From the NCBI RefSeq assembly GCF_001037465.1, contig NZ_LFCV01000029.1, positions 1 to 55,563 of the forward strand: DNA of 55,563 nucleotides, in the 5' to 3' direction. A program made the position numbers and the translations under genes. The notes below the pieces were generated by a model. The model did not search any database and had not been told where the DNA came from. It saw nothing but the letters and a program-made list of their open reading frames with translations. Below are positions 5,208 to 29,669 of the stretch, piece after piece (position 1 is the first letter of the stretch; every line of letters starts with the position of its first letter). This stretch comes from Xenorhabdus khoisanae (GTDB lineage: Bacteria; Pseudomonadota; Gammaproteobacteria; Enterobacterales; Enterobacteriaceae).

Positions 5208-5846
5208 TTATTTCTTTATAAACCCATTATTGAGTAATGTAATTGCTGCGGTGATACGAGGCATAATATCTGTTTCTGGCAGGGGGGGGAGAAGACCTAG
5301 CGCCATTTTCCTGAGGGGTTCCGCAATGACCATTGAGATCATCAATTCACTGGTAAGGTGGTAATCCAGTTTTTTCAATAATCCCCGTTGATATTGGTGC
5401 TTAAGCCAACTAGCGAGAATATTTTGGTCTCTTTCAATGCTGCTTTGCTGATATTTATCCAGCAATATTTCACGATAAGGAAAATCGGTTTGCAGTAATT
5501 TGAATAAACCTACAGCGTTTGTCGATAATGACCTCTCCGCCATTTCTGCTAAATATATTTTTAATAACTTGATGAGTTGTTGAGGATTATTGGCTTCTTT
5601 CTCAAAAACGGGAATAAAATTGTCTGTCCAGCGCATGACAACTTGTTCAAGCAAATCTTCTCGATTCTTAACAAAGCGATAGAGAGTTTTCTTGGCGATG
5701 CCGGCTTTCTTGGCAACAACATCCATCGTTGTTTTGTTATAGCCTTGATTAACAATAAGTAAAAATGTGACATCGTAAATCTTTTGGCGTATTTCCTGCT
5801 CTGGAATTGTAGGGCGACCCCGTGGACGTGAATGATTTTCTGCCAT
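5208..5846 (-). CDS. TetR/AcrR family transcriptional regulator
   Basis: The 212-residue protein has the TetR layout: a basic N-terminus (SRPRGRP), a helix-turn-helix at about residues 39-60 (TTMDVVAKKAGIAKKTLYRF, then KNREDLL), and a helical ligand-binding and dimerisation domain with no recognisable specificity signature. TetR-family proteins are usually repressors released by a small molecule. Its nearest candidate targets are its own gene, the hexosaminidase downstream and the divergent porin. A perfect palindrome about 145 bp upstream of its start is a candidate operator. The ligand is unknown. Confidence 0.85.
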   Translation of the reverse strand: MAENHSRPRGRPTIPEQEIRQKIYDVTFLLIVNQGYNKTTMDVVAKKAGIAKKTLYRFVKNREDLLEQVVMRWTDNFIPVFEKEANNPQQLIKLLKIYLAEMAERSLSTNAVGLFKLLQTDFPYREILLDKYQQSSIERDQNILASWLKHQYQRGLLKKLDYHLTSELMISMVIAEPLRKMALGLLPPLPETDIMPRITAAITLLNNGFIKK

Positions 5847-6415
5847 TTTAGCACCTTATGAGTTGTTAATACTTGCACCGCATTGGCGTGATTCCATTAA
5901 CAAACAGAAATTACTGATTTTATTTTAAATGGAAGGACTAAACCACCTTTCACCAAATACAGAACTCAAGGATACTTGTCAACAATATCAATTAGTTATT
6001 ATAACTAATTCCATTATTAACGATCGTGAAAAATACAAATTAGAACGGAAAAATACACATCAAGTTAAAAAAAAGCCTTAATTGAGGCAAAAGAATATTT
6101 TTTATTACATCATCTAATATTTCTAACTAACTGTTTTAAGTGATTTATTTTTATATTTAATACTATAAGATCATTGAGTTTATGCTCGCGTTGTGACTCT
6201 CATCACAGGATGGCACTTTTCGTCAATTTTTGTTAGCAAAAGGTTGTGTTAAATCTTAGTATCGCTATTGCTTGTTACAAATTTAACATTTTAGTAACTG
6301 GTTCATGTAAAAAATATTCCGCTCACACCTGATCATTTATTCCAGAAAAGATTTCTTGGAATGTGAATTTCTTGGCGGTGGCGAAAAAATAACAATACCA
6401 ATGAGGATCATGATA
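5847..6415. other. TetR-gene/porin divergent intergenic region
   Basis: About 570 bp of AT-rich DNA carries the promoters of the minus-strand regulator and the plus-strand porin. Besides the palindrome listed separately, words such as TGTTACA at 6273 and GTAAC near 6295 resemble the loose half-sites bound by OmpR upstream of ompF/ompC. This resemblance is weak evidence. No small gene is supported here. Confidence 0.4.
5990..6010. promoter_or_regulatory. Perfect palindrome, candidate TetR-family operator
   Basis: Two 10-bp arms (AATTAGTTAT and ATAACTAATT) meet around a single central T, giving a 21-bp perfect dyad. TetR-family dimers usually bind dyads of this size. It lies upstream of the regulator gene and in the divergent region before the porin, with no T-tract to suggest a terminator. 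Binding by the neighbouring regulator is an inference from position and symmetry. Confidence 0.5.
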
Positions 6416-7564
6416 ATGATAAGACACAACGCAATAGCAATGGCACTTCCGGTACTCCTCATCACAGGCGCTGCAAATGCAGCTGAGATTTATAATAAGG
6501 ATGGTAACAAAATTGACTTATATGGTAAGGCGGATGTTCAGAGAACATTCTCTAAATCAAATACAGAATCTGGAGATAGCTCCGTTGGTCGTATAGGCAT
6601 TAAAGGTTCAACCCAAGTTACGGATAAACTGACTGGTTTCGGGCGCTGGGAATTTAATATGGGTGCCAACGGCGTAGAAACCGAGAGTGGTAAAAATACC
6701 AGAACACGTTACGCGTTTGCGGGTTTGAAATATGGCGAATACGGCTCACTGGATTATGGACGTAATATGGGGGTTGTTTATGATGTCAACGCATGGACAG
6801 ATGCATTGCCAGTATTTGGTGGTGATTCCATGGCGGCAACTGATAATTTCATGATGGGGCGTTCGACAGGGTTACTGACATACCGTAATACTGACTTTTT
6901 TGGTTTGGCGAGTGGGCTGAATTTTGCTTTGCAGTATCAAGCTAAAAATGATGGCGGTACTAAAAATAGTCGTAGTGATATTTCAAGGCAAAACGGTGAC
7001 GGCTTTGGCCTTTCCAGCTCCTATGATTTTGATAACGGTCTCAGTATTGGTGCTGCATATGGTAACTCTAACCGTACTTCGGCCCAAAAACTGGGGAGTG
7101 ATGGCGCTAAGGTACTGGCTAAAGGGAATAAAGCTGAAGCCTGGGGCGTTTCTGCTAAATATGACAGAAATAACGTCTATCTGGCGGCCATGTATGGTGA
7201 AACCCGTAACTTAACCAGATTTGGCAGCTCTGTGGACGGGCATACCATGTTTGCCAATAAAACGCAGAACATTGAGCTGACTGCTCAGTATCAGTTTGAT
7301 TTTGGCCTGCGTCCATCCCTTGCTTTTGTTTATTCTAAAGGCAAAGATCTGGGCAAAGACCTGGCTGACAAGAGCGTTCTGGCATCCAAAGGTTCTGAAG
7401 ATTTGGTGAAGTATGTTTCAGTAGGTGCTTTCTACAATTTCAACAAAAATATGGGCACCTATGCTGAATATCAATTTAACTTGCTGAAAGACAATGATTT
7501 TAGTAAGAAAGCTCAGATCACCACCGATGACATTTTTGGCGTTGGTTTGGTTTACCGCTTCTGA
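6416..7564 (+). CDS. OmpF/OmpC-type general porin
   Basis: This is a trimeric 16-strand outer-membrane beta-barrel for passive uptake of small hydrophilic solutes. A signal peptide (MIRHNAIAMALPVLLITGAANA) precedes mature AEIYNKDGNKIDLYGKAD, the classic start of enterobacterial porins. The porin motif EFNMGANG...NTRTRYAFAGLKYGEYGSLDYGRN follows, and the last residue is Phe (GLVYRF), the signal for barrel assembly. Three in-frame ATGs are possible (6401, 6410, 6416); 6416 was chosen because GAGG lies 9 nt before it. At 382 aa it is near the family norm of about 360-380. It lies between a TetR gene and rdgC rather than at the E. coli ompF or ompC positions, so no symbol is given. Confidence 0.92.
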   Translation: MIRHNAIAMALPVLLITGAANAAEIYNKDGNKIDLYGKADVQRTFSKSNTESGDSSVGRIGIKGSTQVTDKLTGFGRWEFNMGANGVETESGKNTRTRYAFAGLKYGEYGSLDYGRNMGVVYDVNAWTDALPVFGGDSMAATDNFMMGRSTGLLTYRNTDFFGLASGLNFALQYQAKNDGGTKNSRSDISRQNGDGFGLSSSYDFDNGLSIGAAYGNSNRTSAQKLGSDGAKVLAKGNKAEAWGVSAKYDRNNVYLAAMYGETRNLTRFGSSVDGHTMFANKTQNIELTAQYQFDFGLRPSLAFVYSKGKDLGKDLADKSVLASKGSEDLVKYVSVGAFYNFNKNMGTYAEYQFNLLKDNDFSKKAQITTDDIFGVGLVYRF

Positions 7565-8635: not shown

Positions 8636-8826
8636 GCAGTTACCCCATATTGTTGCGCATCATGACAAAGGTCATATTAAAACATAAGGGTGCATAATAA
8701 CGAATCATGTGACGAAGCCCTAGAACTTCATTAGTTTCGTATAATAACTTCCTTATTCTCATATAATAAAAAGTCTTATTGCACGCAGTGCCTGTCAGAA
8801 TAGGCACTAAATAGAAAAGGTAAGCT

Positions 8827-9735
8827 ATGCGCATAGGTATTGATCTGGGTGGAACCAAGATTGAAGTGATCGCATTAGGTGATCAGGGTGAAGAGCTATT
8901 TCGTAAACGGGTGGATACACCTCGTAACGACTATCAAAAAACATTGAAAGCGATTGTTGAGCTGATTAACGATGCAGAACAGGCAACTGGTCAGCAAGGT
9001 ACAGTGGGAATCGGAATACCCGGTGCTATTTCGCCTCTTACCGGAAAAGTTAAAAATGCCAATTCTGTCTGGATGAACGGCCAAATCTTGGATAAGGATA
9101 TTGCTGCTTTGTTGGGGCGTGAAATACGTATTGCCAACGATGCAAACTGTTTGGCGGTATCAGAAGCCACTGATGGTGCAGGGGCGGGAATGCCAATGGT
9201 ATTCGCTGTTATCATTGGGACGGGTTGTGGTTCAGGGATTGCGTTTGATGGTCGGGTTCATGCGGGCGGGAATGGGCTGGCAGGAGAATGGGGACATAAT
9301 CCGTTACCGTGGATGGATGAAGAAGATCGAGCGTATCAGGCAGACGTTCATTGTTTTTGTGGCAAACCGGGATGTACCGAAACTTTTGTATCGGGAACGG
9401 GTTTTATGAGGGATTACCTTCTGTTAAGTGGGTTACATAAAACTGGCCATGAAATTATCGAGGCTGTGGTACAAGGGGATGAACTGGCCGAATTGGCAAT
9501 GCGTCGTTATGAAAGGCGCTTGGCACGGGCCTTGGCACAAGTCATTAACTTACTTGATCCGGATGTGATTGTACTGGGAGGTGGAATGAGTAACATTGAT
9601 CGTCTCTACCAAACCTTGCCAGATTTGGTCAAAGAGTGGGTGTTCGGCGGAGAGTGTTCCACACCGATTAGAAAAGCCGTGCATGGTGATTCCAGTGGTG
9701 TTCGCGGCGCTGCTTGGTTGTGGCCTCAGCAATAA
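8827..9735 (+). CDS. mak: Fructokinase Mak (ROK family)
   Basis: Mak is a cytoplasmic ROK-family sugar kinase that phosphorylates fructose (weakly mannose or glucose) with ATP. The phosphate-binding motif [11 protein letters not shown] is at the N-terminus. The ROK signature with its zinc-binding His/Cys set ([10 protein letters not shown] ... [11 protein letters not shown]) is in the middle, and [14 protein letters not shown] follows near the C-terminus. The 302-residue length equals that of E. coli Mak. It is divergent from rdgC, preserving the ancestral order; the accessory block starts directly after it. Confidence 0.95.
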
Positions 9736-10649: not shown

Positions 10650-11846
10650 ATGAGAAGCATGAAGCCATTGGCGACTTTAATTGGATTATTGGTGATGTCT
10701 GGCAGCGCCAATGCGGCGACGGTGTACAACGATAAAGGAACCAAGGTGGATTTGACGGGGCAGTTTCGTTTGAAAACGACCGTGAGCAGTGAAGATCGTG
10801 ATATCCGAATCAAAGATGATGGTAGCCGTATCGGTGTCAACGCCAGCCATGAACTGACCAGAGAAATTAAAGTGTTCGGTAAAATGGAGTGGGGTTCTGA
10901 TACGCAAAAATCCAATAGCGACAATAATAAAACAAGCTTTGAGATGTATAACCGTGTTGGCTATATCGGTGCTTCTCATCGTGATATTGGTGAAATGCGG
11001 GTTGGTCGTACTTATATTCCTATCGATTGGGTGAAAAAATCCAGCCCCGGTTATGGCAACACCGGCGTATTCTATTTTGGCGATGTATTGAGCAGCGCGA
11101 CGGGCTATAACAAAGGTGGTGTTGGTAAAAATAACTTCCTCACCCGTTTGCCTCAGACCCTCTTCTTCCAAACCAACAGTTATAAAGGTTTCAACCTCGC
11201 TGCAACCTACAGCGGCAAATCCGGCGCTGATAACGAACGCCAACACGGTGATATTCGTAGTGCTTACTCGGTGGCCGGTTTTTATAAATCAGACTTTGGT
11301 CTGGAAGCCAGTGCTGGTTATGCTCAGGCGACAGGGGAAAGCAGAAAACCTGTCACGGTAGAGCAAGGGGACAATAAAGGAGAGAGTGTCAGCGATGCAG
11401 GATTGGCTTCTCCACAAGATAGCCTGCTGGCTTTGGGCGTAGAATATTATTTCCCCGGCCGTGAATTCTCCGTTGGTTTCGATTACGGCTTGGCGCGTTC
11501 CAAAAACTCCGGGCTGGTGTACAAAGAAGGCAGTGGAAACTTACAGGAAAAATCGGTCAAAGGTGACTGGAAAGCCAATCTCTACGGTCTGGCTGGCAAG
11601 TGGCATTGGGATAAAATAGGAAGCGGCATGTATGCGGGATATTATCTGCGTGATGGGGATGCCAATACATTCAACTATAAAAAACAGACTTACACGGTCG
11701 GTTTAGATAAACGTTTTGCGGTTTCTAAGTACAATAGCCTGATCCTGTTTGTTGAAACGGCATACGATGATGTCCGTAGCGACAATCCGGCTTACAAAAA
11801 TAAAAAACAAACCATTCTGGGAACAGGAGCACGTTTGTCTTTTTAA
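10650..11846 (+). CDS. Outer-membrane porin, Gram-negative porin family
   Basis: A second porin, clearly different from the one at 6.4 kb. A signal peptide ending SGSANA precedes mature [20 protein letters not shown]. Alternating beta-strand patterns continue to a C-terminal Phe (GTGARLSF), the barrel-assembly signal. The 398-residue length is longer than OmpC/OmpF, with extended loops. The start at 10650 (MRSMKP) or the ATG 9 nt later are both possible. It is the first gene behind the CRP promoter and is followed after 62 nt by cpdB. A role in admitting nucleotides or RNA fragments to the periplasm is an inference from this context; specificity is not visible. Confidence 0.88.
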
Positions 11847-11908
11847 GCAAAATTCCACAGGGAGGGCGCATTTGGGTTCTCCCGTATCATTCTATAAAGG
11901 GGCATAGC

Positions 11909-22263: not shown

Positions 22264-23886
22264 ATGTTAAATAAAATCAGAAAAGAAATTATTAAAACAC
22301 TTTCTTATTCTATCAGTATTATATTGGGTAGTATTGCATTATCCTATGCCGCAGTTATTCTACCTGACACTCAACTTTCTGAAAAACAAGAAATTATTCG
22401 CAATAACGGTTCAGAGCCAGCTTCATTGGATGTTGATAAGGTTGAAGGTAATATAGCACTAAATATTATCAATGACTTTTTTGATACATTAGTACGCACA
22501 GATAAAGAAGGTAAGATTAAACCCGGGCTGGCTGAAAGCTGGGAAACGAAAGATAATAAAACGTGGATTTTCCACTTACGAAAAGGCATTAAGTGGTCTG
22601 ATGGAACACCAATTACAGCTCATGATGTGGTGTTTAGCTGGCGGCGTTTAACCGATCCTAAAACGCTCTCTCCTTATGGTAGCTATTTCGCTGATGCTTC
22701 TGTTGTGAATGCCAGAGAAATTTTGGCAGGAAAGAAAAAACCGGAAGAACTGGGTGTCAAAGCGCTGGATAGTTCGACCTTGGAGGTAACGTTAGAGAAA
22801 CCTGTTGGGTATTTTTTACAGATATTGGCTTTCCCTATTACGGTTCCAATTAGTGAAAAAGTAGTTGAAAAATATGGTGAACAATGGACTCAGCCGGAAT
22901 TTTTCGTTTCCAGTGGGGCGTTTAAATTAGCAGAGTGGAAAGTAAATGAAAAAATTATTGGGATGAGAAATCCTAATTACTGGGATAACAAAAATACGGT
23001 AATTAATAAAGTCACTTATCTCCCGCTTTCATCAGATGTTTCAGATTTAAACCGTTATCTGGCTGGAGAAATAGATATCACATTTACAATTCCATTGGCA
23101 TCTTTCTCATCATTAAAGAAAAAAATAAGTTCACAGGTTCATGTTTCACCAATACTTAGTACATATTATTATGAATTCAACAATAAAAAATCACTATTTA
23201 ATGATATTAAAGTCCGACAGGCATTAAGTCTTGCCTTGGATAGAGAGATTATTGCTTATAAGATTGTTGCTCAAGGTCAAATACCTGCTTATACTATTTT
23301 CCCACCGGGAATCGGCGGTTTTAAATTCAAACAACCTGATTATCAATCATGGACACAAGCCCAACGTGTTAAAAAAGCCCAAAAATTATTGAATGAAGCA
23401 GGGTTTAATAAGGATAGTCCTCTTGAATTTAATTTGGTTTATAACTCATCAGAAATACACAAGAAAATAGCTATTGCTGCAACTTCGATGTGGAAAAAGA
23501 ATCTTGGTGTTATTGTTAATATACAAACTCAGGAATGGAAAGTTTTGTTGGATAACGAACACCAGGGGAAGTTTGATGTCGTCAGAAATGGATGGATTGG
23601 CGATTATGATAGCCCGATGTCTTTTCTAAATATATTTACAACAAATCAAACGAATAATACTTCATTTTATTCAAATAAGAATTTTGACGCATTGGTACAT
23701 AAGGCCGGAGAAACTAATAAGCTAGAGGATTTTCAATAAGCACTTGATCTTCTGACAGAAGATACACCTGTCATTCCTGTCTATTATTATGTTACAGCAG
23801 TATTAGTGAAACCTTATATCGGTGGATATTACTCTAATCTTATGGGATTTATTGCAACGAAAGATCTTTATGTTATTAAACATTAA
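22264..23886 (+). pseudogene. OppA-type paralogue 4, interrupted by a nonsense codon
   Basis: The frame runs as a normal SBP_bac_5 protein: signal peptide ending LSYAA, then NNGSEPASLDVDKVEGN, LAESWETKDNKTWIFHLRKG and TQEWKVLLDNEHQGKFDV. At 23737 it meets TAA after EDFQ. The same frame continues for 48 more codons (ALDLLTEDTPVIPVYYYV ... ATKDLYVIKH) to the natural stop at 23884, matching the C-termini of the other paralogues. A single substitution of CAA or AAA explains the stop (siblings read YQQA or YQKA here). The 491-residue product would lack the final segment that completes lobe I. Readthrough cannot be excluded, but this is most likely a recent pseudogene. Confidence 0.85.
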
Positions 23887-24087: not shown

Positions 24088-24396
24088 ATGAATATTAAAT
24101 TCAATCGACTGAGTAAAGTTAATAGAAATGATATTATTGCTTTAAACACTCATCCTCTTGTTCTCCGCCAAATGCCTTTAGCAAAGGATAAATTTGATGA
24201 GCAACAGTGCCGAATGTGGGTTAAAGAAAAAGAAAAGCACTGGGAAATATACGGTTATGGCCTTTGGGCATTATTTTTTCAAATGAGACTTGAATCAGTA
24301 ACGATCTTACTCCCTCCGAGCAGAAACCGAACAAAAGGGATTTTTCGTCTGGGAATGGCTATCTTGGTAGCATTTAACGTGCCAATGCATTGTTAA
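24088..24396 (+). pseudogene. GNAT-type N-acetyltransferase, decayed
   Basis: The first 70 residues (LNTHPLVLRQMPLAKDKFDE ... EIYGYGLWALF) resemble the start of a GNAT-fold acetyltransferase. The later words ESVTILLPPSRNRTKGIFRLG resemble its C-terminal part. The central acetyl-CoA-binding region that should lie between them is missing, and the end runs out of frame to NVPMHC. The 102-residue frame is therefore an internally deleted and frameshifted relic rather than a small gene. Family assignment is by motif memory. Confidence 0.65.
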
Positions 24397-24729
24397 TAAA
24401 TTACTAAGTGTTTAGTCTCAGATTTTGCGAGAACCCCTTGATAGAGCAGGGAGCAGCTACCAGATCCTACTTATCCCTTTATCTTTCAATTATTGTAATC
24501 GAATGAATTCACTTGCCGATTCAAGGACAATTTTTAAGTACTGAAACCTGCATCTTCAAGCTAATTGGATATAGTTACTTCTCCTAAGCAAATAGATGAG
24601 ATTTTTTAACAAAATGTAAACAATTATGAATCATTTTATTTACATTTTCGGGTGGGTAATATATGTTTTTATTGTCTTGCAAGAGAAAAATAAAATACAA
24701 CCATTACTTATATTACAAAGGAGAAAGTC
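24397..24729. other. Intergenic region before the oxygenase cluster
   Basis: About 330 bp of AT-rich DNA without a supported gene. It must contain the promoter of the six-gene cluster, but no -35/-10 pair with 16-18 bp spacing stood out. GCATCTTCAAGC near 24550 faintly resembles one arm of the interspersed repeat at 9.8 kb. Confidence 0.4.
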
Positions 24730-24756
24730 ATGGATTATCAACCTTTAGGCATTTAG
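24730..24756 (+). other. Eight-codon reading frame ending in TAG, in frame with the MFS gene
   Basis: AAAGGAGAAAGTC directly precedes ATG, the best Shine-Dalgarno in this region. The frame reads MDYQPLGI and stops at TAG (24754). The same frame continues without another stop (LTNKLDRYKENF) into the MFS transporter ATG at 24793. Two readings fit: the transporter's true start is 24730 and codon 9 has mutated to amber, or this is a leader peptide whose translation is coupled to the transporter. Confidence 0.6.
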
Positions 24757-24792
24757 TTAACCAATAAACTGGACAGGTATAAAGAAAATTTT

Positions 24793-26007
24793 ATGCCTGT
24801 TCTACTTTACAATGGATGGGGGAACTACATGATAAAATACGTTGGAGTGGGTGCCAATGAACTGGATACATATCTCGATTATGCCATATTAAGTATCATT
24901 GCAGTTTATATATTGCAGTCAAAACCATACGAAATCGGCATATTGGGTGCATGCTTTGCCTTTCCTTTTTTGCTTTCAAGTTATTTGTTTGGACGTATTT
25001 TTGATAAGGTAAGTATTCTGAAATGGCGGGCATTTTTATTCATTATCAATATTATTGTCATGCCCCTTATTTGTCTTTCTAGTACGATGGTTACTTTATA
25101 TTTTGTCGCTATTATTAAAACGACATCACGATGTGGAATCTATATTTCTAACACTAAACTTAATATCAATGATGATGAGTCCAAAAAATTCTATGAAATT
25201 TATGGCTATATGATTAATTTCAGTAGGGTTGTCATCCCGTTGGTAATTATCTTTATCTACCATACTGTTGGAACATGGGGTGTGATTGCTATTTCTATGC
25301 TACTTAATCTAGTAGCATTATTATCGACACTATCTGATGATAAAGAAGATTATCTCTACACTGACACTAAAGGCAGTGCGGTAAGCGCAGAGTATTCCTT
25401 TTATCAGATTGTTAAAAATAACACAGACCTTTTTAACCTTGTTGTGGCTTATACGTTAGCAAATCTGGCTTTCTTCCTTAGTAACGATATGCTTAGTATT
25501 TTCTTTCGTCACTTAGGCCAGAGCGAAAATAGTGTAGGGTATATTATATCGCTACTGGGCATTGGGGGATTTTTAGGTACCAAACTTGCTGCTGTTCTAG
25601 TCAATGATCTAAGAGCAAAATTTATTTTATTAATTTCCGTATTTATCAATACAACCGCATTTACTTGTTTTGGTTATCTGAATCCAGAGACGACATCTAT
25701 ATATATATTCTATATCGATATCCTGCTGGTGGGCATATCATCTGGACTTACATTTTTCTCAATTCGTTATGGTGTGAGAAACATAGTAGGGTACCAACAT
25801 ATGGGAAAAACAACAGGAAATATTCAGATGTTATCGTCTATTTTTGCAATCCTTATGCCAATTGTGGGGGGATTTATCGCCAATAATTTTTCCATTAATT
25901 TTACATTCAAAATAACGAGTTTCATTCTGGGGATGACGTTTGTTTACTTTATCTTATTCAAAGACAAAATGCACAAAGGAAATAAACTCTATGAAAAATC
26001 AGAATAA
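24793..26007 (+). CDS. MFS transporter, probable exporter of the cluster product
   Basis: The 404-residue protein is highly hydrophobic with about ten to twelve membrane segments and major-facilitator features. These include the short basic/acidic loop FGRIFDKVSILKW after the second segment, a polar central loop (DDKEDYLYTDTKGSA) dividing two halves, and glycine-rich helices such as SLLGIGGFLGTKLAA. Its immediate upstream sequence is open in frame to a well-placed start at 24730 except for one TAG, so the annotated start may be a fallback. ATGs at 24793 and 24829 are both possible; the latter has GGGGGA before it. The next gene overlaps its end by 17 nt. Export of the pathway product or self-resistance is inferred from context. 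Confidence 0.82.
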   Translation: MPVLLYNGWGNYMIKYVGVGANELDTYLDYAILSIIAVYILQSKPYEIGILGACFAFPFLLSSYLFGRIFDKVSILKWRAFLFIINIIVMPLICLSSTMVTLYFVAIIKTTSRCGIYISNTKLNINDDESKKFYEIYGYMINFSRVVIPLVIIFIYHTVGTWGVIAISMLLNLVALLSTLSDDKEDYLYTDTKGSAVSAEYSFYQIVKNNTDLFNLVVAYTLANLAFFLSNDMLSIFFRHLGQSENSVGYIISLLGIGGFLGTKLAAVLVNDLRAKFILLISVFINTTAFTCFGYLNPETTSIYIFYIDILLVGISSGLTFFSIRYGVRNIVGYQHMGKTTGNIQMLSSIFAILMPIVGGFIANNFSINFTFKITSFILGMTFVYFILFKDKMHKGNKLYEKSE

Positions 26008-26740
26008 ATTAAGTGAAATCAACTTCCTTGCTGATAAGCACTATGATTTATATTTAAAAGGGAAAACCAAACAAACTTGGGATTGTAATCTTGACTGGGA
26101 GCTCGCAGCTAATGATCTCTTGTCGGATAATTTGCATGAAGCTGCTGTAACAGTGGCTAGCCTATCTGCGCATGTTGAACTACTGGGAATGGAAAATGCT
26201 GCTGAATTAATGCTGCAGACGAACGATTTTGCATTAAAGATGGGGCTTGCTCAGGCGGTCAATGATGAAGCTAGACATTCTGAACTGTTTGCCAAGTACG
26301 CTATTTTGGCTAATGGTGCCATCAAAGACCTCTCAAAAACACGTGAACTCTATCTTTATCATTTTACTCAGCTTAAAACTTTTGATGAAACTTTTTTGAG
26401 CCATGTTTTTTTAGAAAATGGAGCATTGGAACAGTTTAACATTTTTATTCATGCTTTTGGTGAGCAAAGCCTGATTGGTCAGATCTATAAAGGTGCCATG
26501 CAAGATGAAGCCCGCCATGTTCAGATGGGAATTAACTATTTCAGAAGTCTTATTGATCAATCGCCATCGAAAAAAGAAATGATTTACGAACATTTGTCAA
26601 CCTTTAAGCACATCATCCATGTCAACAAAGACAGCATCGATTGGTTATCTGGTATTAGTAAGATCCCTGCCGATGAAATTGATAAGAGAACCAAAAAACG
26701 ACACGATAATTTTATCAACAAAATATTGGAGAATAATTAA
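25991..26740 (+). CDS. Ferritin-like non-haem diiron oxygenase/oxidase
   Basis: A four-helix-bundle carboxylate-bridged diiron protein is indicated by two copies of the ligand motif DEARH. Candidate ligands in the 249-residue product are Glu63 (HVELLG), Glu93 and His96 (NDEARH), Glu142 or Glu147 (LENGALEQF), and Glu173 with His176 (QDEARH). The pattern is E, ExxH, E, ExxH, as in ribonucleotide-reductase R2-like, AurF-like and MiaE-like enzymes, which activate O2 for hydroxylation, N-oxygenation or desaturation. The ATG at 25991 has AAAGGA before it and overlaps the transporter gene, implying translational coupling. The substrate is not recognisable. It is not a ferritin storage protein by length or context. 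Confidence 0.8.
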   Translation: MKNQNKLSEINFLADKHYDLYLKGKTKQTWDCNLDWELAANDLLSDNLHEAAVTVASLSAHVELLGMENAAELMLQTNDFALKMGLAQAVNDEARHSELFAKYAILANGAIKDLSKTRELYLYHFTQLKTFDETFLSHVFLENGALEQFNIFIHAFGEQSLIGQIYKGAMQDEARHVQMGINYFRSLIDQSPSKKEMIYEHLSTFKHIIHVNKDSIDWLSGISKIPADEIDKRTKKRHDNFINKILENN

Positions 26741-27343
26741 ATGCTTGAAGGTGTTTGTATTATACAAAATGCAATTAGTGAAAGAGAATTAGATATTATT
26801 TATCGTTATCTGGCTGTTTCCGAAAATATTGGGCAGTTGAAAGGAAACAAAGACGCAACTGATGCGCATATGTATTACGCATTGCCTTATTTTGAAGCGA
26901 TGTTGAGCCATTATACTGACGTCATCTCACAAACAGTAAAAGAAAAAGTTTATCCTAGCTATTCTTTTTTATGGAATTACAAGAAAGGTTACCAGCTTCC
27001 ACGTCATAAGGATAGAAACTCTGTCGATTATATTATTTCTATTGGTATCCATAAGCAGGCAGAATGTGAATGGCCTCTATTTGTGGATGGCAAAGAAATG
27101 AATATGGATGTGGGTGATATTCTGATTCTTGATGGCAAGCGTTTTGAACATTGGAGAGAAGCGTGTCCATACAATAACCGACTACAGTTGATACTTTGCT
27201 ATACCAGAGATCCATTTCTTCGTTTTGATAAGAGAGTGCATTTAGGATTTGAACCTATTCCTGAAGTTATTACTAGTCCCTTCAAAGAACATCTTACGAT
27301 AGATGATGACTATATTTCTGAATTAAGGAGCCTCTATGTCTGA
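26741..27343 (+). CDS. Putative 2-oxoglutarate/Fe(II)-dependent oxygenase
   Basis: The 200-residue protein has the jelly-roll dioxygenase facial triad: His89-x-Asp91 (LPRHKDRNSVDYIISIG), then His137 (GKRFEHWRE), and a downstream Arg147 (NNRLQLILCY) at the place where 2-oxoglutarate is bound. The strand MDVGDILILDG before the distal His is typical of prolyl-hydroxylase-like folds. Such enzymes hydroxylate or otherwise oxidise unactivated carbons with O2 and 2-oxoglutarate. The start codon abuts the stop of the diiron gene, and the next gene overlaps its end by 8 nt. The family assignment is from motif geometry; overall similarity to a named enzyme was not recognised. Confidence 0.7.
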   Translation: MLEGVCIIQNAISERELDIIYRYLAVSENIGQLKGNKDATDAHMYYALPYFEAMLSHYTDVISQTVKEKVYPSYSFLWNYKKGYQLPRHKDRNSVDYIISIGIHKQAECEWPLFVDGKEMNMDVGDILILDGKRFEHWREACPYNNRLQLILCYTRDPFLRFDKRVHLGFEPIPEVITSPFKEHLTIDDDYISELRSLYV

Positions 27344-27629
27344 ACCATTATTTTATGATAATTCATTTGTTTTTTTCGATGGGCGAGTAATACTAAGAAA
27401 TTTCATTTCCAACGGTGTTCGTGTCACATTGGGTTTTATGGCTAAGGGTGAGTATCGTTGGCTGGCTGAGGAAGCAGAACATTTTATTATTGACGAAGGA
27501 GAAGCGATTTTTTCTTATGATAATTTCGAATTTGTCGCCTCTCCTAGCAGTGAAATCATCATTCCTAAGGGTATGACTTTTAACGTTAACGTGAGGAGTC
27601 ATCTTGATTATTGGTGTTATTATGCTTAA
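27336..27629 (+). CDS. PpnP-like small cupin (DUF1255 family)
   Basis: The 97-residue protein lines up by eye with the pyrimidine/purine nucleoside phosphorylase PpnP (YaiE). Shared features are a strand with VTLGFMAKGEYRW, then an acidic segment EEAEHFIIDEGEA, IIIPKGMTFNVNV and the C-terminal YWCYYA (PpnP ends YLCRYL). PpnP is a single-domain cupin that phosphorolyses several nucleosides. If the assignment holds, this is an unusual member placed inside an oxygenase cluster. It might act on a nucleoside intermediate or have been recruited as a cupin of another function. GGAG precedes the ATG, and it overlaps both neighbours. Confidence 0.65.
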   Translation: MSEPLFYDNSFVFFDGRVILRNFISNGVRVTLGFMAKGEYRWLAEEAEHFIIDEGEAIFSYDNFEFVASPSSEIIIPKGMTFNVNVRSHLDYWCYYA

Positions 27630-28638
27630 TTTGGGAATTATAGGTACTGGGCTAATGGCCAATGTTATCGCTGCTGTGTGCAAAGAAACAGATATAAACA
27701 TTTATTCTGTTCTTTCCCGTACAGAAAGTTCAGCACGCTTATTTTGTCAAAAATATAATATTGAGCAACAGAATGCTTTTAGCGATTTGGATGCTTTTTT
27801 CCGTGATGTGAAATTAGAGGCAGTTTATATAGCAACACCAACTTCAGTAAAACATAAATTTATTGCTCAATGTTTGATCCATAAAAAACATGTTCTAATC
27901 GAAAAACCGTTGCATGATATGCATTTTTTCAGCAAGTTTTGTAATAAAGCGCAAGAGCTAGGTTTAGTCTGGCTTGATGCTGCTCATTTTATCCATAATG
28001 AATGGTATGAACAGCTCCACTCACTCATTGAAACTAATGTGGGGCTTCCTTCCCGCATTGATGCTAGTTTCTTCTGGCCTGATTCGGATAACGGTCAAAT
28101 TAAATTTAATCCCGATCTTGAACCTGATGGTGCGTTGGGAGATTTGGGGTGGTATCCCATGAGACTTTTATCTTCTGTGATCGGCTCTTCTCGTATTAAA
28201 TATTTAAGCGGATTCCTTCGAGAGAATTATCGCAAAACTATAGTTGAATTCAATGCGATAGGTTGTTCTGAAGAAGGTATAACTTTTTCTCTGGCTTCAA
28301 CCTATCGCGGGACGGTAGCACGTCAGCAGTGTGTTATTTCAGGTGAAAAAGGGGAGATTTCCATGCAGGATTTTGTGATGCCATATTGTGGCTCTTTTGT
28401 ATATGGGAAAATGCTCCCTTCAATGAGTTGCCGACATTCTTGGGGACTCAAGCCGTTGATAGATTTTGAGGAGATACCATTCACATTCTCTGGGTTACAA
28501 CATAAAAGTATGCTTCAGAATTTTCACCGCTATACACGGCATGTCGATACTGAAAAATTATACATTCATCAACGTAACGCGCTGAATACGCTGTTATTAA
28601 TGGAAAAAATGAGGCAAGAATTGTTCCGTATCACATAG
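27622..28638 (+). CDS. Gfo/Idh/MocA-family NAD(P)-dependent oxidoreductase
   Basis: The N-terminal Rossmann fold shows GIIGTGLMA (residues 5-13) and the family motif EKPLHDM (EKP 94-96), with AVYIATPTSVKH before it. The C-terminal substrate domain has EPDGALGDLGWYPMRLL. Here Tyr replaces the usual catalytic His, as in the dihydrodiol-dehydrogenase-like and glucose-fructose-oxidoreductase-like branches. Enzymes of this family oxidise or reduce hydroxyl/keto groups, often on sugars or cyclitols. The ATG at 27622 overlaps the cupin gene by 8 nt and was preferred to an upstream TTG. At 338 residues it is full length. Substrate unknown. Confidence 0.85.
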   Translation: MLNLGIIGTGLMANVIAAVCKETDINIYSVLSRTESSARLFCQKYNIEQQNAFSDLDAFFRDVKLEAVYIATPTSVKHKFIAQCLIHKKHVLIEKPLHDMHFFSKFCNKAQELGLVWLDAAHFIHNEWYEQLHSLIETNVGLPSRIDASFFWPDSDNGQIKFNPDLEPDGALGDLGWYPMRLLSSVIGSSRIKYLSGFLRENYRKTIVEFNAIGCSEEGITFSLASTYRGTVARQQCVISGEKGEISMQDFVMPYCGSFVYGKMLPSMSCRHSWGLKPLIDFEEIPFTFSGLQHKSMLQNFHRYTRHVDTEKLYIHQRNALNTLLLMEKMRQELFRIT

Positions 28639-28667
28639 ATATACTCAAAAAAACTGGTGAGAACAAT

Positions 28668-29669
28668 ATGACTAATATCCATTCAATATTCATTTTCATC
28701 TATCAGGATATAATTATTCCTTTCTACTACAGGCTGACCATCTTTTTTTCTCCTAATCATGGATTATTCATAGGCTATTTATTTATTTCATTTGTAATTG
28801 CTGTCATTTGGTTTTCTGTACACCTAAAAACTTGGAATGTTATTCAAGTTAGTGGCCAAGTTATACGTATCCATAATTTTAAGTCAAGATCATCGATAGA
28901 TGACCTTAAGCTATATTTTTTTGATAAAGTAGTTCTTGGGTTTGTTTACTCACTAATCTTGGGAATATCATTATTTTTCAGGCAAGAGGTCATAGAACTC
29001 TTTTCTATTCTAGGAATACCGACGGGACATAGAGTAGCTAGTGCGGCTATTAGTTTGTTACTTACTCTGGGTTCGCTGATTGCTTTTGATTTTGCAGTTT
29101 TTTTTGAACATTATTTATCCCATAAAATTCATATTTTATGGGAGTTTCATAAAATCCATCATATTGCTGAAGACTTAACTCCACTAACTGCTTACCGTTC
29201 GCATCCGGTCAACCAGTCGACATTTATCTTACTGGCAAGTTTTATTACTGGTATTTATTCTGGGGTCGTTGGGTATTTTTTTGATCAAAATCATGCTTAC
29301 GTGGTATTTGCCGGACAAAATGTCTTCATGTTTCTTCTCCTTATGTTAGGCCTTAATCTTCAACATTCTAGAGTCTATCTGAGATACCCCCTGATTATTC
29401 GGAATATTTTTGTAAGTCCAGCATATCATCAGGTACATCATAGCAGTGATTCACAGCATCATGATAAGAATTTTGGGTTCATCTTTTCGTTCTGGGATAA
29501 GTTTTTTGACTGTCAGGTAATGCCTCCAAAAACAGTGGAACTATCATTTGGAGTCAGTGGGGAAAAGTATGAAAACTTTTCAGGCTTAAAAAATATGTAT
29601 CTCACGCCCTTTAAAAGAATATTTAAACGAATAAGAAAAAAAATATCCCGATACAGCTTGCGGCAGTAA
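28668..29669 (+). CDS. Sterol desaturase/fatty acid hydroxylase superfamily membrane enzyme
   Basis: An integral membrane diiron hydroxylase or desaturase. Several hydrophobic segments in the first 140 residues precede the histidine clusters that bind iron: His148-x3-His152 (HYLSH), His161-x2-HisHis165 (HKIHH), a central NLQHSR, and His254-x2-HisHis258 (HQVHH) followed by SDSQHHDKNFG. These match the superfamily signature. Members hydroxylate or desaturate lipids, carotenoids or sterols. The gene is last in the cluster, 29 nt after the dehydrogenase, behind GAGA and ATG. A lipid-like moiety in the pathway product is possible but inferred. The C-terminus is basic (KRIFKRIRKK). Confidence 0.85.
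   Translation: MTNIHSIFIFIYQDIIIPFYYRLTIFFSPNHGLFIGYLFISFVIAVIWFSVHLKTWNVIQVSGQVIRIHNFKSRSSIDDLKLYFFDKVVLGFVYSLILGISLFFRQEVIELFSILGIPTGHRVASAAISLLLTLGSLIAFDFAVFFEHYLSHKIHILWEFHKIHHIAEDLTPLTAYRSHPVNQSTFILLASFITGIYSGVVGYFFDQNHAYVVFAGQNVFMFLLLMLGLNLQHSRVYLRYPLIIRNIFVSPAYHQVHHSSDSQHHDKNFGFIFSFWDKFFDCQVMPPKTVELSFGVSGEKYENFSGLKNMYLTPFKRIFKRIRKKISRYSLRQ

Follow-up and report, generated by a model that had tools for sequence, protein, structure and literature searches.

A six-gene cluster of Xenorhabdus khoisanae is headed by an 8-codon minigene, and comparison of related loci suggests that its product is probably a very small ribosomal peptide, heavily oxidised and then exported, of a type not described before. 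We propose a RiPP-type pathway in which the minigene encodes the substrate peptide, three iron enzymes would oxidise it and an MFS protein would export it; we give this reading a probability of roughly two in three. The cluster lies at 24730..29669 of the window, the whole stretch of DNA analysed (55,563 nt, contig NZ_LFCV01000029.1, assembly GCF_001037465.1), and the interval begins with the first base of the minigene's ATG.

The Six-Gene Locus

Pfam and NCBIfam scans, together with the coordinates, confirmed that the six genes of the preliminary description are real, stand in the order given there and are all on the plus strand (Table 1). Genes 1-5 overlap or abut, as had been described, and a gap of 29 bp separates genes 5 and 6. 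The MFS gene was taken to start at 24829, where its homologues begin at the equivalent site; the listed ATG at 24793 lies within a hairpin. In the same scans the six proteins had no match to NRPS, PKS or other scaffold-making families, which favors a peptide product. The scans of the six proteins also found no dedicated peptidase and no peptide-recognition domain, and this counts against such a product; recognition domains are common, but not universal, in RiPP pathways.

Table 1. Features of the cassette and its leader region in the window.
Feature	Position	Strand	Basis	Loci
Promoter-like TTTACA-17-TATGTT upstream of the minigene	24639..24667	+	consensus scan 9/12	
8-codon minigene (MDYQPLGI), putative gene of the precursor peptide	24730..24756	+	conserved core, preceding AAAGGAG	11/11
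Hairpin, 13 bp stem, between minigene and MFS gene	24771..24802	+	predicted stem	11/11
Gene 1, MFS transporter, proposed exporter	24829-26007	+	PF07690 E 5e-23	11/11
Gene 2, ferritin-like diiron oxygenase/oxidase (putative), two DEARH motifs	25991-26740	+		11/11
Gene 3, HxD...H...R iron oxygenase (putative), Asp/Arg hydroxylase-like, orphan family	26741-27343	+		10/11
Gene 4, PpnP-like cupin	27336-27629	+	PF06865 E 1e-10	9/11
Gene 5, Gfo/Idh/MocA NAD(P) oxidoreductase	27622-28638	+	PF01408 E 4e-16	9/11
Gene 6, membrane FA_hydroxylase/sterol-desaturase family protein	28668-29669	+	PF04116 E 1e-19	10/11

A Conserved Minigene at the Head of the Cluster

The preliminary description had stated that the cluster has no recognisable peptide precursor. 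This statement is contradicted by the minigene, which follows a strong ribosome-binding site and is found at the equivalent place in all 11 distinct loci compared, namely Xenorhabdus contigs and a plasmid, Pantoea plasmids, and loci of Cedecea, Winslowiella and Vibrio. At 27 bp, the window's minigene falls within a range of 24-33 bp (7-10 codons) for all the loci, and every copy encodes a core of [D/E]YQP[L/V]. The Vibrio locus has two tandem minigenes, each with its own SD, that share an identical core and differ at their ends; the comparison therefore included 12 minigenes. Among these, the third position is variable in 5/5 core codons, the first in 1/5 and the second in 0/5, and the changes in codons 2-5 are at third positions only. 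The ends of the peptide are variable, with M, MF or MK before the core and GI, AV, AS, VS, V, GVI or GVV after it. The YQP core is identical in the window and in Vibrio, though the MFS proteins of these loci are only 35% identical, and the core is kept as amino acids while the untranslated DNA of the loci diverges. These results showed the minigene to be a coding unit conserved among the loci. The distributed gene table of the three plasmid records, which is incomplete, holds no minigene entry.

RNA Structure Around the Minigene

The hairpin region folds better than 200/200 shuffles in the window (z -3.81) and better than 199/200 in Vibrio, where a well-supported hairpin was found only after the second minigene (z -2.94, with z -1.03 between the two minigenes). 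In a set of 10 loci, several columns of the stem show two-sided pair changes, and the sequence of the Vibrio stem is unrelated to those of the other stems. A 12-column test of the hairpin against swapped arms gave 0.958 versus 0.886 paired, a gap that is small because the arms are alike among loci. What supports the hairpin is therefore the shuffle scores, together with the two-sided changes and the unrelated sequence of the stem in Vibrio, and not the 12-column figure. A terminator scan of the window region did not list this hairpin. The promoter-like match upstream of the minigene is weak, since the region contains fewer such matches (15) than the shuffle mean (23.3); a similar TTTACA/TATgTT layout was seen by eye in several relatives.

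The stem starts 3-20 nt past the minigene stop in 9/11 loci and 22 and 26 nt past it in the other two, close enough for a ribosome to influence it. In RNA cut where the 5′ arm ends, 0 to 12 bases of the arm pair upstream. In 7/10 loci, a count made with no significance test, the leader offers the 5′ arm a possible pairing partner 44-60 nt ahead of the minigene, around a CCTTGCAAGG/CCTGCAGG palindrome. For the remaining three loci, the partner falls inside the minigene, is closer by, or is absent.

A hairpin behind so small an ORF is also what a leader-peptide attenuator would show, a likeness that runs against a precursor role. Under such regulation the minigene would be a sensor rather than a substrate and the pathway product would not be a peptide; a ribosome stalled on MDYQPLGI, for example by the product itself or by an uncharged tRNA, would alter hairpin formation and, through it, the readthrough into the pathway genes. 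The presence of the strong SD, the ORF and the hairpin in 11/11 loci, the short distance from stop codon to stem and the candidate competing fold are all in favor of this explanation, and some resistance genes are preceded by leader ORFs in tandem. Against it, the minigene has no run of repeated regulatory codons, a T-run directly follows the stem in Vibrio only (the other 10/11 stems have none), the two Vibrio minigenes are separate SD-bearing genes, and the conservation described above is that of amino acids. The competing fold, for its part, fits both readings, because the substrate-encoding mcc operon also has ribosome-dependent termination, according to PMC6495379. The possible competing pairing nonetheless keeps regulation by a leader peptide alive as the main rival, an unlikely explanation that deserves serious consideration.

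The Cassette Enzymes

The features of the gene 2 product are consistent with those of the ferritin-like diiron oxygenases, that is, a helical bundle with four Glu and two His ligands, all six of them assigned here from the motif. Its AlphaFold2 model is all-helical (mean pLDDT 84.8), and E63, E93, H96, E142, E173 and H176 are invariant in the 10 aligned proteins, one of which has DEAKH as its second DEARH motif. The DUF455 and phenol-hydroxylase models of Pfam match this protein below cut-off. It is weakly similar to the R2-like ligand-binding oxidases (NCBIfam E 4e-6, far below cut-off), and PDB chains named "ribonucleotide reductase small subunit" resemble it, the best being 6i90 (E 3e-4), which we take to be R2lox. 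The VlmB homologue 6d9f matched only at E 0.47, and the PDB search produced no close solved relative. What distinguishes the protein from both the R2-like ligand-binding oxidases and VlmB is its size of about 250 residues and its two DEARH motifs.

The gene 3 product may be one of the Fe(II)/2-oxoglutarate dioxygenases, which have an HxD...H facial triad and a 2OG-binding Arg on a beta fold. Its candidate triad and arginine (H89, D91, H137 and R147) are invariant in 10/10 aligned proteins, the model is beta-rich and of moderate confidence (mean pLDDT 73.3), and the Asp_Arg_Hydrox model matches below the Pfam cut-off. A search of solved structures with the HxD profile gave no match at E up to 1.

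The enzyme families invite another explanation, an ordinary pathway for the oxidation of a small molecule or lipid with its transporter, in which the minigene would be a translational enhancer or a relic. The FA_hydroxylase, for which no solved structure matched the window's protein at E up to 1, would suit such a pathway, and so would the NCBIfam OlsE and inositol 2-dehydrogenase models, which match cassette proteins below cut-off, and the sugar 3-ketoreductase structures among the structure matches to the cassette enzymes. Neither the conservation of the minigene's amino acids across families nor its duplication in Vibrio is explained in this way, and we consider such a pathway improbable. 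The earlier proposal that the cluster makes and exports an oxidised metabolite fits the enzyme families, but its precursor-free form is contradicted by the minigene.

Distribution, Linkage and Mobility

The six-gene set is not a product of chance, because all six genes have the same order in 8/11 loci, the window counted. The complete set shows synteny in Vibrio, in Cedecea and on both Pantoea plasmids, and the diiron gene was found in 5/30 genomes of the genus (the window's included), the same five that have a close Gfo relative. This co-occurrence within the genus and synteny across families strongly support the idea, put forward in the preliminary description, that the genes form a functional unit; losses apart, homologues were not seen to scatter independently. 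The cupin and Gfo genes are lost in 2/11 loci and the HxD oxygenase (of which a remnant persists) and the membrane hydroxylase in 1/11. A Gfo match in one locus, weak and on the reverse strand, was rejected as a cassette member and left out of the count. Preservation of gene order across families, with differing flanks and low GC, indicates that the locus is a mobile cassette.

The minigene of X. mauleonii has been kept despite the decay of its HxD oxygenase and the loss of its membrane hydroxylase, and codon 22 of the X. yunnanensis diiron gene is an in-frame TAG. Both observations speak against a precursor role for the minigene.

Searches beyond these loci gave few matches. Of the 12 that the diiron profile had in 369 class-level genomes, one was the window's own and the other 11 were weak (E from 2e-10 to 2e-4, with tblastn identities of 24-29%). 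These 11 were not counted as members, and none of the remaining cluster genes was found in their short loci at E 0.05. The HxD profile found nothing beyond the window's own protein in 398 genomes of the phylum, and 0/20 candidates from IMG/VR were confirmed with it. A search of plasmids with the Vibrio HxD protein returned the same three records and one 22% Cupriavidus match, while 5,426 E. coli genomes had no match to the Pantoea DNA of genes 2-3.

Within the genus, the SD and minigene pattern is present in exactly the five genomes that carry the diiron gene and in 0/25 others; the minigene is strictly tied to the cassette enzymes there. A reversed control pattern had matches in 4/388 genomes and in 0/30 of the genus. 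It is scarcely credible that the ORF is open by chance and conserved merely as DNA: eight codons are few and GGAG...ATGGANTAYCARCC also occurs in 2/388 genomes besides two cluster holders, but those two matches, from other families, were rejected as minigenes since their frames stay open to 28 and 86 residues, and neither the restriction of the true pattern, within the genus, to cluster-bearing genomes nor the third-position changes are those of such a frame.

Proposed Pathway

In the RiPP-type pathway that we favor, the minigene would be translated from its strong ribosome-binding site into (formyl-)MDYQPLGI, and the hairpin past it would keep the levels of minigene RNA and peptide above those of the enzymes, as happens in mcc. 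The diiron protein and the HxD...H oxygenase may then oxidise residues of the D/E-Y-Q-P-L/V core by hydroxylation, desaturation or cross-linking. Additional redox or isomerisation reactions, which the pathway can do without, could fall to the cupin and the Gfo/Idh/MocA dehydrogenase. The membrane hydroxylase may catalyse an oxidation late in the pathway, and export of the product would be left to the MFS protein; the variable peptide ends are probably trimmed or tolerated. A conserved peptide gene stands beside oxidative enzymes in 11/11 loci; the substrate role of the peptide, the residues modified, the order of steps, export and any bioactivity are inferred.

We also lean, with some reserve, toward a new RiPP class that combines three traits: leaderless genes of 7-10 codons with a D/E-Y-Q-P-L/V core; maturation through the joint action of an orphan HxD oxygenase, a membrane hydroxylase and a ferritin-like diiron enzyme; and a mobile cassette shared among Enterobacterales and Vibrio. 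Such a class would have escaped notice since genes of eight codons are absent from the output of gene callers.

To our knowledge, very few systems make ribosomal natural products from genes of less than 10 codons, microcin C and the biarylitides being those we know of. If our reading is correct, the cassette would be another such system, with a different, non-haem-iron enzyme set, and MDYQPLGI would be a small, tractable substrate for two poorly described oxygenase families. Minigenes would then hide in published genomes, and the cassette offers a recipe to search for them: SD, minigene, hairpin, exporter and oxygenases.

Comparison with Known Systems

The preliminary description knew of no characterised pathway with this set, and among the titles and abstract beginnings of the leading literature matches none describes it. 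The cassette is without the defining enzymes of the microcin C, biarylitide and MNIO pathways. The MNIO (DUF692) RiPPs, such as methanobactin, involve iron-dependent oxidation of a ribosomal peptide, as is proposed here. Their enzyme is a DUF692 protein, to which the six cassette proteins had no Pfam match; the iron proteins of the cassette belong instead to the ferritin-like diiron, HxD...H oxygenase and membrane FA_hydroxylase types. In biarylitides, a cross-linking cytochrome P450 is encoded beside an 18 bp gene (bytA); Pfam found no P450 among the six proteins, and the core and hosts are unlike those of the cassette.

Pantocin A has a longer precursor and an enzyme set unlike that of the cassette. 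It resembles the cassette as a small peptide-antibiotic cluster of Enterobacterales (Pantoea) with a small ORF upstream, and differs in being a three-gene operon, as summarized in PMC11350110. The same paper describes the Pantoea natural product PNP-2, a six-gene cluster from other host genera in which pnp2E is a predicted ferredoxin reductase. Identity of the cassette with PNP-2 was rejected on that description, as Pfam found no ferredoxin reductase domain among the six proteins.

Microcin C has an MFS-type exporter, MccC, as the cassette has an MFS protein. Its organization is also similar: as PMC6495379 relates, the 7-codon mccA (MRTGNAN) heads the operon, a hairpin separates it from mccB, ribosome binding to mccA induces termination at the hairpin and leads to excess MccA, and ORFs of 2-8 codons may undergo reiterative translation. 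The order minigene, hairpin and operon is the one found in the cassette. The two differ in that MccA ends in Asn, whereas the cassette peptide has a conserved core and no terminal Asn, and in that Pfam found no counterpart of the ThiF-like adenylyltransferase MccB among the six proteins. Where microcin C has nucleotide transfer, the cassette has oxygenases in its place.

The six genes and their distribution

The preliminary description had listed six genes, for an MFS transporter, a diiron protein, an HxD oxygenase, a cupin, a Gfo/Idh/MocA dehydrogenase and a membrane hydroxylase, and all were borne out as described, every one on the plus strand; comparison with relatives revised three starts. 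The iron-enzyme assignment of the sixth gene comes from Pfam FA_hydroxylase (E 1e-19), while those of the diiron and HxD genes come from conserved ligand patterns, the Pfam matches of both lying below curated cut-offs.

The diiron gene was found in five of 30 genomes of the genus, the window's own included, and the same five hold a close Gfo relative (E ≤ 1e-103; remaining Gfo matches, E ≥ 1e-10). Scanning 84,980 species genomes gave 92 candidate stretches, from which seven loci were confirmed, and 72,556 plasmid records yielded three. With repeat copies of four contigs counted once, the total is 11 distinct loci, window included: six from Xenorhabdus (window, BG5, X. thuongxuanensis, X. yunnanensis, X. 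mauleonii and the TH1 plasmid), two Pantoea plasmids, an uncultured Cedecea, Winslowiella arboricola and Vibrio hepatarius. Only two of 394 genomes sampled across the order carry the cassette. The genome scan was probed with two short peptide patterns and therefore may miss more distant clusters.

The complete set occurs in eight of the 11 loci, and whichever genes remain keep the same order in all. The MFS and diiron genes are universal, the HxD oxygenase and membrane hydroxylase are present in all loci except X. mauleonii (10/11), and the cupin and Gfo genes in all but Winslowiella and the TH1 plasmid (9/11). The X. mauleonii HxD remnant outscored all 300 shuffles with each of three queries; the minigene and diiron gene there are still open. 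In X. yunnanensis, codon 22 of the diiron gene is an in-frame TAG. Both loci without cupin and Gfo carry a nearby short-chain dehydrogenase, on opposite sides and strands relative to the cassette, either a substitute or a coincidence.

No flanking ORF of at least 80 aa outside the cassette in four Xenorhabdus loci matched a window ORF, and one flanking gene was common to two of those four. The GC content of the window cassette is 0.357 versus 0.425 in its surroundings; it was also lower in all six other loci computed (out of 10). Conjugation genes adjoin one Pantoea copy. The differing flanks, low GC and conjugation genes indicate that the cassette moves horizontally.

Coordinates of features in the window and in related loci
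Sequence	Position	Strand	Feature
Window	16591		ORF similar in size to the SBP_bac_5 gene at 22264, which it precedes
Window	18354		As above
Window	20111		As above; SBP_bac_5 (only one of the three scanned)
Window	22264-23886	+	Oligopeptide-binding protein gene (SBP_bac_5), broken by in-frame TAA (23737-23739); frame runs on to 23886
Window	24088-24396	+	102-residue ORF, by eye like the beginning of a GNAT acetyltransferase; without a Pfam match at E ≤ 1; possibly a gene fragment
Window	~24675-24685		Short palindrome
Window	24730-24756		Minigene
Window	24829	+	MFS gene, revised start
Window	25991	+	Diiron gene, revised start
Window	27622	+	Gfo gene, revised start
L021 (X. mauleonii)	8751-8995		Decayed HxD oxygenase remnant
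L025 (no cupin, Gfo)	10992-11897		Short-chain dehydrogenase
L022 (no cupin, Gfo)	5638-6444		Short-chain dehydrogenase

A conserved minigene

Alignment of the upstream regions revealed an 8-codon ORF preceded by AAAGGAG, a proposed precursor peptide gene present in all 11 loci. It encodes MDYQPLGI in the window, MEYQPVGI in BG5 and X. thuongxuanensis, MDYQPLAV in X. yunnanensis, Cedecea and both Pantoea copies, MDYQPLVS in Winslowiella, MDYQPLAS in the TH1 plasmid and MDYQPLV in X. mauleonii; Vibrio has a tandem pair, MFEYQPVGVI and MKDYQPVGVV, with a separate ribosome-binding site for each. Across the five core codons of the 12 minigenes, variation is confined to six of 15 sites, namely every third position (the D/E exchange among them) and one first position; no second position varies. 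Six random variable sites would include all five third positions with a chance of 10/5005 (hand arithmetic, kinship ignored). Within the genus, a ribosome-binding site followed by M[D/E]YQP marks precisely the five cluster holders among the 30 genomes (reversed control, 0 matches). Of 388 order genomes four have it, two of them being cluster holders and the other two having longer ORFs (control, also four).

The predicted intergenic hairpin

A stem is predicted between the minigene and the MFS gene in all loci (isolated hairpin, -11.9 to -22.1 kcal/mol). None of 200 shuffles folds as well as the window stretch, and just one of 200 does so for Vibrio; the stretch separating the two Vibrio minigenes is unremarkable, its fold being equalled by 34 of 200 shuffles. 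Several pairs change on both sides (12 columns, 10 loci; e.g., column 8, T-A to C-G), and pairing is 0.958 with own arms versus 0.886 with swapped arms. The Vibrio stem is of unrelated sequence, with a T-run.

In seven of 10 loci the 5′ arm could pair instead with the leader 44-60 nt upstream of the minigene, a leader that might in part precede the transcription start. Such pairing would suit ribosome-controlled termination, of the microcin C (mcc) or of a regulatory kind. The palindrome (reading CTTGCAAG, CCTTGCAAGG or CCTGCAGG across the window and its relatives) recurs just 3′ of a promoter-like -10 in several loci, and could be an operator or a competing-fold partner of the 5′ arm.

Proposed mechanism and comparison with known systems

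Most likely, an excess of the peptide would be made; the diiron and HxD enzymes would oxidise its D/E-Y-Q-P-L/V core, the remaining enzymes would process it further and the MFS protein would export the product. That the cassette combines an invariant acidic residue with an Asp/Arg-hydroxylase-like protein, and an invariant Tyr with an R2lox-like one, is at most suggestive of enzyme-residue matches. The biological role may be that of an antibiotic, a metal ligand or a signal.

The literature matches listed held no published description of this gene set. Membership in the microcin C-like, biarylitide or MNIO (DUF692) groups was rejected, the defining enzyme of each being missing among the six proteins. 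PNP-2, a Pantoea antibiotic cluster, also has six genes and a similar size; compared by gene content and hosts, it differs in including a ferredoxin reductase and in its host genera (PMC11350110). A close parallel in layout is the mcc operon, where a hairpin occupies the same place, between the 7-codon mccA and the next gene. Ribosome binding to mccA triggers termination at this hairpin, resulting in abundant mccA RNA, and reiterative translation is possible for ORFs of 2-8 codons (PMC6495379). By analogy, the cassette hairpin may function as that of mcc does.
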